This document shows positions 1,795 through 2,961 of a DNA stretch of 8,978 nt, one piece after another. A program made the translations under genes and the position numbers. The stretch lies in assembly GCA_946631535.1 (NCBI GenBank), contig CAMPAF010000113.1, positions 1-8,978 on the forward strand, given 5' to 3'. This DNA comes from an uncultured Verrucomicrobiota bacterium. Its GTDB lineage: Bacteria; Verrucomicrobiota; Kiritimatiellia; RFP12; UBA1067. The stretch's first letter is position 1. Every line of letters starts with the position of its first letter. A model generated the notes under the pieces. That model worked only from the letters and a program-made list of their open reading frames with translations. It was not told the origin of the DNA and did not search any database.

Positions 1795-2904
1795 TCAAGC
1801 CTGTGCGGCCATTACGCGGTTTCCGGGAAGAAAGCGCACGCGCCCCTTGAGGCGCAACCCCACCAGCAAGGAGTTGACCTTCTCTATAGGAAGCTTCGCC
1901 TCGCGGACTATCGCATCGACCGTGGCGCCGCCTTCCGGGATCGCCCGAATCACCAGCGACTCCTCAATGGTTATTGGGGAATGGGGAACGGGGGATGGGG
2001 AATGAGGAACGGGGGATTGTTCGACTTTCGACCTTCGACTTTCGGCCTTCGACTTTCTGCTCCCGACTCCCAACGGAGTCAATTCCTCGACGATGTCGTC
2101 CACGCACGTCACGAGGCGTGCGCCCTCGCGGATGAGATGGTTGCATCCGGCTGCGACCTTCCAGTCAACGCGTCCGGGCACGGCCATCACCGCCCGCCCC
2201 TGCTCCACGGCGCGCGAGCATGTGATGAGCGTGCCGCTGCGGAGCGGACACTCCACGGCCACTACGCCGTGCGAGATGCCGGATACGATCCTGTTGCGCT
2301 GCGGGAACGTCTGCGCGTCGGGACGGCGTCCAAACGGAAACTCGCTCGCCACGCATCCGCCCTTCTCCACCATCTCTCGCGCGAGCTTGCGGTTCTCGTT
2401 CGGGAAGAAGCAGTCGAGCGCGCCGCCCAGGATGCCAGCCGTCGCGCCGCCGCCAGCGAGCGCGCCGCGGTGCGCCGCCGCGTCGATGCCCGCGGCAAGG
2501 CCTGAGAACACGGCCCAGCCGCGCTGCGCAAGCCCTGCGGCGAGCCGTTCCGCCGTCTCGCGCCCGTAGGCGGTGGCCGCGCGCGTGCCCACGAGCGCGA
2601 CTCCGGCCTTGGACAGCACGGCCGGATCGCCAGTGACGTAGAGCGCGAGCGGAGGAGAGGCGATCTTCTTCAGGAGCGGCGGATAGGCGGCGTCGAGCTC
2701 GGTCACGATCGTGACGCGCATCTTCGCGGCACGCGCGATCTCGCGCTCCCATTCGGGTTCCTTCCCCTCCCAGTCGCGCTTGTCCGGATATCGCGCGTAA
2801 GCCTCGGCCACGCTGCCTCCGGCCTCGGCCGCCAGCCGCGCCACTGTCACCGACCCGACGGTCGGAATCATGTTGAATGCGATTCTCGCTTCTCTTTCGG
2901 TCAT
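1795..2904 (-). CDS. dprA: DNA processing protein DprA (Smf) with a repeat-encoded interdomain linker
   Basis: DprA binds incoming single-stranded DNA in the cytoplasm and loads RecA during natural transformation; it is widespread even in species not known to be competent. The 369-residue product has an N-terminal helical region (about 1-70) and the Rossmann-type domain (about 75-275). Visible hallmarks are VALVGTRAATAYG (102-114), SGLAAGIDAAAHRGAL (134-149), a GG...G nucleotide-like loop near 151-161, SEFPFG (187-192), FPQRNRIVSGIS (200-211), SGTLIT (223-228), GRAVMAVPG (236-244) and GCNHLIREGA (253-262). A winged helix (about 313-369, TVDAIVREAKLPIEKVNSLL) closes the protein. Residues 281-310 between the domains are low complexity (SRKSKAE and PVPHSPS repeats) and are encoded by heptanucleotide tandem arrays. 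The ATG at 2904 has an AAGGA site four to five bases upstream. An upstream TTG at 2961 was rejected because it lies in the promoter -35 box. Confidence 0.95.
   Translation of the reverse strand: MTEREARIAFNMIPTVGSVTVARLAAEAGGSVAEAYARYPDKRDWEGKEPEWEREIARAAKMRVTIVTELDAAYPPLLKKIASPPLALYVTGDPAVLSKAGVALVGTRAATAYGRETAERLAAGLAQRGWAVFSGLAAGIDAAAHRGALAGGGATAGILGGALDCFFPNENRKLAREMVEKGGCVASEFPFGRRPDAQTFPQRNRIVSGISHGVVAVECPLRSGTLITCSRAVEQGRAVMAVPGRVDWKVAAGCNHLIREGARLVTCVDDIVEELTPLGVGSRKSKAESRRSKVEQSPVPHSPSPVPHSPITIEESLVIRAIPEGGATVDAIVREAKLPIEKVNSLLVGLRLKGRVRFLPGNRVMAAQA
1973..2021. repeat. Heptanucleotide tandem array A inside dprA (consensus AAYGGGG)
   Basis: Seven consecutive 7-base units on the plus strand: ATTGGGG, AATGGGG, AACGGGG, GATGGGG, AATGAGG, AACGGGG and a degenerate GATTGTT that joins array B. 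On the coding (minus) strand three units equal seven codons, giving the protein repeat PVPHSPS / PVPHSPI. The G-rich strand is non-coding. The pattern resembles the short tandemly repeated heptamers (STRR) known from heterocystous cyanobacteria, but here it lies within a coding region. Confidence 0.9.
2022..2070. repeat. Heptanucleotide tandem array B inside dprA (consensus CGACYTT)
   Basis: Seven consecutive 7-base units directly abutting array A and in the same register: CGACTTT, CGACCTT, CGACTTT, CGGCCTT, CGACTTT, then two decayed units, CTGCTCC and CGACTCC. The coding strand gives the heptapeptide repeat SRKSKAE / SRRSKVE, basic and probably disordered. Arrays A and B together span 98 bases and encode roughly DprA residues 279-311. 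Confidence 0.9.
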
Positions 2905-2932
2905 TCGGTCCTTCCGGTGTCCTGCGCCGCAC

Positions 2933-2961
2933 ATGATAGCACAACGCGAGGATTCGGACAA
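2933..2961 (-). promoter_or_regulatory. Promoter for dprA and the GH43-like gene (extended -10)
   Basis: The 60-base gap upstream of dprA contains, on the minus strand, TTGTCC (2956-2961), a 17-base spacer and TATCAT (2933-2938), with TGC just before the -10 giving an extended -10. The -10 matches consensus at five of six positions and the -35 at four of six. Transcription would start near 2926, about 22 bases before the ATG at 2904. This would uncouple dprA and the secreted protein gene from the upstream unit. Confidence 0.6.

Follow-up and report, generated by a model that had tools for sequence, protein, structure and literature searches.

Cyanobacterial STRR sequences are tandem arrays of heptamers. 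In the SPADE survey, heptamers were the most abundant intergenic tandem repeats in many prokaryotes, with no clear functional clue in the text accessible to us (PMC6344855). G-rich heptamer arrays with the units GGGAATC and GGGGA(C/T)T were described in Xanthomonas and Nostoc by Rehm et al. (2015). Two Xanthomonas genomes carried 70 and 75 convergent inverted pairs, whereas few were found in Nostoc, and 83% of the repeats lay at the same place in both Xanthomonas genomes, with varying length and sequence. According to the accessible part of that report, the arrays are under-represented in coding DNA and have no known function (PMC4692102). Rickettsia palindromic elements (RPE) are found not only in intergenic DNA but also, in frame, within conserved protein genes (PMC2229807, PMC10969869). 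Borg tandem repeats evolve fast, lie in genes and encode disordered protein regions (PMC9879509), and in Beggiatoaceae TAACTGA is an abundant heptamer direct repeat situated mostly just upstream of start codons (PMC4679880).

The heptamer arrays analyzed here, in dprA of a stretch of 8,978 nucleotides (the window) and in genomes of its relatives, resemble those of Rehm et al. in being dispersed and less frequent in coding DNA than expected, in forming inverted pairs (in the relatives) and in that the G-rich units of those authors are close to the window's GGGGAAY. In the parts of that report available to us one unit type was studied per genome, whereas here each genome contains many unit types, called genes hold about half of the arrays, and orthologous sites differ in unit type. 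Period 7 is common to the SPADE survey and to our data; the survey, in its accessible text, contains no analysis of pairing or turnover. As in Borg repeats, a tandem repeat of DNA within a gene encodes a segment, here predicted to be disordered, but in-gene Borg units are perfect and divisible by three (PMC9879509) while the window unit has seven bases and is imperfect. The Beggiatoaceae repeat shares the abundance of a heptamer with the arrays described here, but is described with one unit and one indirect repeat only (PMC4679880). Heptamer pairs in inverted orientation are already known from Xanthomonas and in-frame palindromes from Rickettsia, and their combination appears to be new: no description of heptamer-armed in-frame palindromes, or of such repeats in Kiritimatiellae, was found in the top-ranked literature, which took in few subscription journals.

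Two heptamer arrays and the DprA linker

An earlier note on the window had placed fourteen 7-base units at 1973..2070 within dprA, and this was borne out by Tandem Repeats Finder (TRF), by matches at different lags and by a cut into units. TRF reported 5.7 copies of TGGGGAA at 1975-2014 and 5.4 copies of TTCGACT at 2020-2057, both with period 7. Within 1973-2070, 61 of 91 positions matched at a lag of 7 and 53 of 84 at a lag of 14; for the other eleven lags in the range 2-13 there were 17-37 matches among 85-96 positions. Each array had a period-7 score of 13, and a score of 13 or more was reached in 1 of 300 order-3 Markov shuffles of the window; head-to-tail 7-base units, the mark of dispersed heptanucleotide tandem repeats, are above chance here. 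On the plus strand, units 1-6 read ATTGGGG AATGGGG AACGGGG GATGGGG AATGAGG AACGGGG and units 8-14 CGACTTT CGACCTT CGACTTT CGGCCTT CGACTTT CTGCTCC CGACTCC. The proposed division into seven plus seven units of two families stood as far as the cut into fourteen is concerned, but the junction unit 7 (GATTGTT) fits neither family, and degeneration is apparent in units 13-14 (CTGCTCC, CGACTCC). The purine-rich array (Table 1) includes, at 1976-2000, a four-tract G4 motif with short loops, GGGGAATGGGGAACGGGGGATGGGG, which is on the noncoding strand of dprA.

The 7-base phase shared by both arrays had been taken as a sign of a single bipartite element or of growth of the arrays from one another's boundary. 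It is uninformative, because a tandem unit may be taken to begin at any of its seven bases, and any abutting 7-mer arrays have a common phase apart from the junction. Their polarity, in contrast, is informative. The two families, previously called unlike, rather look like related purine-type heptamers facing each other on opposite strands: the TTCGACY-type array corresponds to GTCGRRR on the dprA strand, and GGGGAAY and RGTCGAA (the reverse complement of TTCGACY) both match GNNGAAN. In the related genome G001 (see below), some GGTGAAA-type arrays include in-register units of GTCGAAA or GACGAAA (L052, L096, L098), and in one array (L021) GGGGAA units pass into GGTGAA units. The window arms have opposite polarity, yet their inverted similarity is 0.50, with a mean of 0.46 for random pairs, and folding of the single strands does not surpass that of shuffles (z +0.64, +1.60), so that neither the complementary units of a Rehm-type inverted pair nor the palindromic stem-loop of a Rickettsia-type element was found in the window.

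The dprA frame is intact across the array, which shares this in-frame position with the Rickettsia-type element; a 369-residue entry for the same protein (P0002) has a later start than the frame in Table 1. Pfam assigned residues 79-285 to DNA_processg_A and 324-381 to DprA_WH. The array had been said to lie exactly between the Rossmann and winged-helix (WH) domains, and it is indeed interdomain except that it overlaps the first seven residues of the DprA_WH match. In an AlphaFold2 model, based on an alignment of the window protein with 59 of 120 listed homologs, the first WH helix starts at residue 332. Mean pLDDT values were 46, 47 and 62 for residues 301-310, 311-320 and 321-330, respectively, with a whole-model mean of 88.4. 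Since the positions of the array coincide with the residues predicted to be disordered, the DprA linker is the array. Among the sequence relatives for which structures have been solved are the DprA chains 3uqz and 3maj.

The array region is free of stops in all three frames, and out-of-frame reading beyond it encounters a stop at codon 3 or 7. Since seven bases are not a whole number of codons, a heptamer array without stops encodes the same cyclic peptide in every frame and therefore only its total length must keep the frame. Openness in all three frames together with the predicted disorder of the linker explains why the array is tolerated. The earlier view that an insertion is tolerated here agrees with the finding that relatives carry unrelated linkers. 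Linkers differ widely among the 120 listed of 1,189 DprA homologs, most of them having abundant charged residues, proline and alanine; the peptides of relatives are unlike in composition (SRKSKAESRR, KVKGEVKGE, VGPDHRAGRN). Two other entries of the window's species, P0001 and P0003 (99% identity, on contigs of other lengths), had a linker identical to that of the window, and no unit-number variants were found in them. Of the two outcomes regarded as refuting in the earlier note, a close relative with the same linker peptide written in non-repetitive codons and a genome devoid of other such arrays (see below), neither was encountered among the relatives compared. Rfam families at gathering score were detected neither in the window nor in three loci of relatives, and plasmid megablast with the window returned no match.

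Table 1. Positions of the arrays, the reading frame, the predicted linker and the paired elements of related genomes
Feature	Position	Strand	Remark
Purine-rich heptamer array, AAYGGGG/GGGGAAY type, about six units	1973..2017	+	TRF, unit cut, lag matches
Pyrimidine-rich heptamer array, TTCGACY type, about seven units, the outer ones degenerate	2018..2070	+	TRF, unit cut
dprA reading frame, 388 aa from TTG	1795..2961	-	Encodes the array as residues 298-330
Predicted disordered interdomain linker, residues 299-331	1969..2067	-	Without secondary structure in the model
Orthologous inverted pair	L053:11080-11199 vs L072:14513-14632		Different units in both arms
Orthologous inverted pair	L053:14653-14831 vs L072:18238-18372		Different units in both arms
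G004 palindrome, examples	L072:14754-14859; L085:5463-5556

The dprA site and heptamer arrays in related genomes

Relatives were matched by identity of the dprA locus. They include isolate RUG10884 (G001), the nearest genome compared (92% over 1,301 bases around dprA), and RUG11483 (G004, an uncultured bacterium), together with G024 (uncultured Verrucomicrobia bacterium) and G022 (Kiritimatiellae bacterium, sheep rectum), which belong to one genus with them. RUG in the isolate names stands for rumen genomes, and the window accordingly probably derives from a Kiritimatiellae lineage of the gut.

The dprA linkers of G001 and G004 consist of (GGTGAAA)n, a short spacer and (TTTCACC)n, unlike the window's heptamers, and encode KVKGE- and SPFTIHHSPFTI-like peptides. 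Their single strands form a hairpin, far better than shuffles (z -3.85 and -6.17). The profile score rates these arms low (0.51 and 0.58); the long arms include register shifts, and the fold is the better evidence for them. The arrays of the window, G001 and G004 have site, polarity and layout in common. Twelve dprA loci of the genus were compared (L033-L044, the best of 17 matches in 14 of 16 genomes, omitting the partial or weak L045-L049; L029-L032 are the same DNA as L034, L033, L035 and L043). Period-7 runs with a score of at least 9 were present in two of them, those of G001 and G004, and the other ten, including that of G008, had none. Other repeats were seen in the linkers of L039-L042 and L044, namely GGTAGGGCCCGATCACC in G023 (L042), GGGGAAGCGGCGTCTC in G005 (L044) and GGTCGCGACAAGCGCGACC types. 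The DprA linker thus collects different repeats in other members of the genus.

Arrays were counted in 0.80 Mb of G001 and 0.40 Mb of G004. At a score of 14 or more, period 7 gave 32 arrays in each sample and periods 5, 6, 8, 10 and 11 gave 0-13; periods 9, 14, 18 and 21 were also well represented, period 18 equaling period 7 (32). When 0.40 Mb of each genome was shuffled once by an order-2 Markov model, no array reached this score. With the threshold lowered to 11, 39 (G001) and 34 (G004) period-7 arrays were counted, along with 0-1 for periods 5, 10 and 11 and 10-23 for periods 6 and 8, while period 9 gave 53 in G001, where it outnumbers period 7, and 21 in G004. Period 7 is common in this genus, but not unique. 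Similar arrays outside dprA, which were looked for, are thus present in G001, and it is in this genome, not the window's own, that the many genomic copies expected of a dispersed repeat were found (39 arrays in 0.80 Mb). The density of period-7 arrays was 18-67 per Mb in G008, G010, G022, G002 and G005; none was found in 0.10 Mb of the close relative G024 or in 14 kb of G007.

Gene calls for arrays and palindrome loci came from our own codon-usage model, not from an annotation program. By these calls, 17 of the 39 arrays of G001 lay in genes, 8 at gene edges and 14 between genes; the corresponding numbers for the 34 arrays of G004 were 17, 4 and 13. With coding fractions of 0.89 and 0.87, respectively, the in-gene share is below expectation and arrays are therefore depleted in genes, yet frequent there, and a copy inside a gene is not as unusual as had been supposed. 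Among ten array-bearing frames scanned, an SNF2 helicase had its array between its two helicase domains and two arrays lay inside predicted domains (GH92, DEAD).

Inverted pairs and a heptamer-armed palindrome

For the pairing of arrays a lower cut-off was used, which gave 92 arrays in G001 and G004, and adjacent pairs within 200 bp were considered. Seventeen of 21 pairs were inverted, 16 of these with a similarity above 0.75, one was direct and three were neither; inverted similarity exceeded 0.75 in 7% of random array pairs. Among the 17 is a pair whose arms come from two neighboring elements (L072:14580-14785). When seven further genomes were added, 26 pairs comprised 19 inverted, 2 direct and 5 other ones. 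In 7 of 8 strongly purine-skewed inverted pairs the purine arm preceded the pyrimidine arm, the order seen in the window. In G001, the pairs L052 and L096 are situated within genes; their folds have z -6.85 and -9.06, and the peptide they encode, SRKVKGE...HLSPFTLHPSP, resembles the window's SRRSKVEQSPVPHSP in layout.

Comparison of orthologous inverted pairs between G001 and G004 revealed different units in both arms at two further sites (Table 1), which suggests that both arms may change together (n = 2, including the site of the G001 core copy described below). Clear unit changes within one run were uncommon (3 of 40 runs of at least 35 bp). Other fast-changing short repeats were observed at L053:7350-7570 and 9250-9440, unlike the sequence at the corresponding place of G004.

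In G004, a 106-base query yielded at least 35 distinct near-full copies of a palindrome, a lower bound from 40 of 112 candidates scored, with no fewer than 92 of the 106 bases of the query covered by each copy. The element measures about 100 bp and consists of GTGCTTA/G-type heptamers, a core of 34-35 bases and inverted heptamers; the query folds as a palindromic stem-loop with z -8.96. The 24 distinct loci examined, derived from the 30 best-scoring ones, include 11 in called genes, 10 of which are read on one core strand, two of these ten with a poorly placed core; placement was poor in some loci (17-19 of 35 matches), among them the genic L203 and L206. One core type gives rise to a recurring peptide like CLVPSAELKxQDLRESNAPSTKHQAPS. 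In the methionyl-tRNA synthetase (MetRS) of G004, also one of the ten frames scanned, the element occupies residues 575-606 and so lies after the anticodon domain (415-526) and before the tRNA-binding domain (619-713). A protein search with this MetRS gave 26 further matches on the element in G004, 18 of them in stop-free frames of at least 296 residues. The element as such was absent from the MetRS of the 12 relatives read, whereas G022 and G011 have a short look-alike (PAPGAEC); this comparison took in 12 of 15 loci, without G004, G012 and G023, and G004 was read separately.

The element thus occupies many sites in G004, some of them without it in relatives, and no clean target-site duplication was seen. 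The one core copy found in G001 lies at a place orthologous to that of a G004 copy; its outer units are still GTGCCTGGTGC and GCACCAAGCACC and the inner units of both arms are of the AGCTTTA type. The G004 palindrome behaves like Rickettsia palindromic elements, which it resembles in being palindromic, in length and in its occurrence in called genes. It differs from RPE as described in the accessible text, which mentions no heptamer-array arms, in being heptamer-armed, and the window pair differs from them in having neither core nor hairpin.

Origin of the dprA array

Further copies of the window units were sought in relatives. Allowing up to one mismatch, GGGGAAYGGGGAAYGGGG gave 28 matches at 13 places in G001 and its reversed control gave 0, so that the dispersal of heptamer arrays considered before is shown in this nearest genome. 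Three exact TTCGACY units in succession were absent from the 13 genus genomes scanned, and the single match among 21 genomes belonged to another family of the same order. On the GGGGAAY side, three short matches beyond dprA were found in G001, with 40 of 139 candidates scored. A phylum search for exact GGTGAAAGGTGAA..TTCACCTTTCACC matched 1 of 387 genomes, G001 itself, G004 being outside that draw; we therefore take the heptamer units to be species-specific. GTCGAAN was only weakly co-located with other heptamer arrays (5 of 69 sites near an array versus 1.4% of random positions), two of the five sites sharing one locus and one being its own array. Y1 (REP-associated) transposases were considered as a driver and rejected; since 16 of 16 genus genomes have them, with 1-7 matches each, they do not distinguish genomes with many arrays from those with few.

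We consider that the dprA array is probably a local copy of the heptamer arrays found throughout the lineage, an inverted pair that predates the species split and whose units have been rewritten since. From the sisters G001 and G004 alone we infer its descent from an inverted pair, which would have been present in the dprA linker before the lineages of the window, G001 and G004 separated. Strand slippage would then lengthen, mutate and rewrite units, with occasional hairpin formation or template switching between the arms. In the window, the arms would have drifted apart and the hairpin would have been lost, the array being nearly neutral in its predicted disordered linker. Unit replacement was not seen in progress among the sequences compared.

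The earlier note had instead suggested a discrete bipartite mobile repeat that was inserted as a unit into dprA. The palindromes of G004, with their at least 35 heptamer-core-heptamer copies and sites that relatives lack, such as the MetRS linker, speak for mobility of this kind, but the window pair has no such core, a target-site duplication was not seen and, in G001 and G004, heptamers other than those of the window occupy this place of dprA. As no second GGGGAAY-TTCGACY copy was found in the relatives searched either, the insertion of a fixed bipartite element is improbable. A selected switch, in which the loss or gain of a unit would alter the frame and thereby delete the winged-helix domain, or in which the G4 motif would tune expression, would draw on the out-of-frame stops shortly after the array, on the four-tract motif itself and on the known in vitro G4 formation of heptamer arrays (PMC4692102). 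Frame switching by these stops is possible in principle and ranks low: the imperfect units should lower slippage, the linker is unchanged in P0001 and P0003, the sister arrays are mainly GGTGAAA without the same G4 motif, ten of the twelve genus dprA loci have no array, and Rehm et al., in the part of their report available, considered phase variation unlikely for their arrays (PMC4692102). A switch of either type is accordingly very unlikely.

Selection on the peptide has an equally slight chance; here, a long, charged or proline-rich linker would be needed and repeats would be its quick supply. The predicted disorder of the window linker and the residues prevalent in homolog linkers fit this explanation, whereas linker composition differs between relatives and arrays also occur between genes (14 of 39 in G001, 13 of 34 in G004). 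Low complexity by chance, or an assembly artefact, is hardly credible: a single shuffle in 300 attains the score of one array, but two such arrays abut, the identical linker occurs on other contigs (P0001, P0003) and relatives contain dispersed arrays.

The reading as a local, rewritten inverted pair leaves room for a further, tentative proposal, which we hold to be rather doubtful, that the heptamer-armed palindromes are active small elements spreading in frame into linkers, their arms co-rewritten by hairpin-templated slippage, and that the dprA arms have become uncoupled. If such palindromes are indeed active, each species would have its own seven-base code at the same site. With its many unit types, its inverted pairing and the differences in units between orthologous sites of close species, this lineage is a natural test case for the origin and change of arrays, and it shows heptamer arrays supplying protein linkers with new sequence, in the manner of Rickettsia palindromes.

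Finally, in the open frame at L081:3547-5721 on the minus strand, a PgpA domain and an SBP_bac_5 domain are linked through a heptamer element; the frame may represent a fusion, or its start may be misread.
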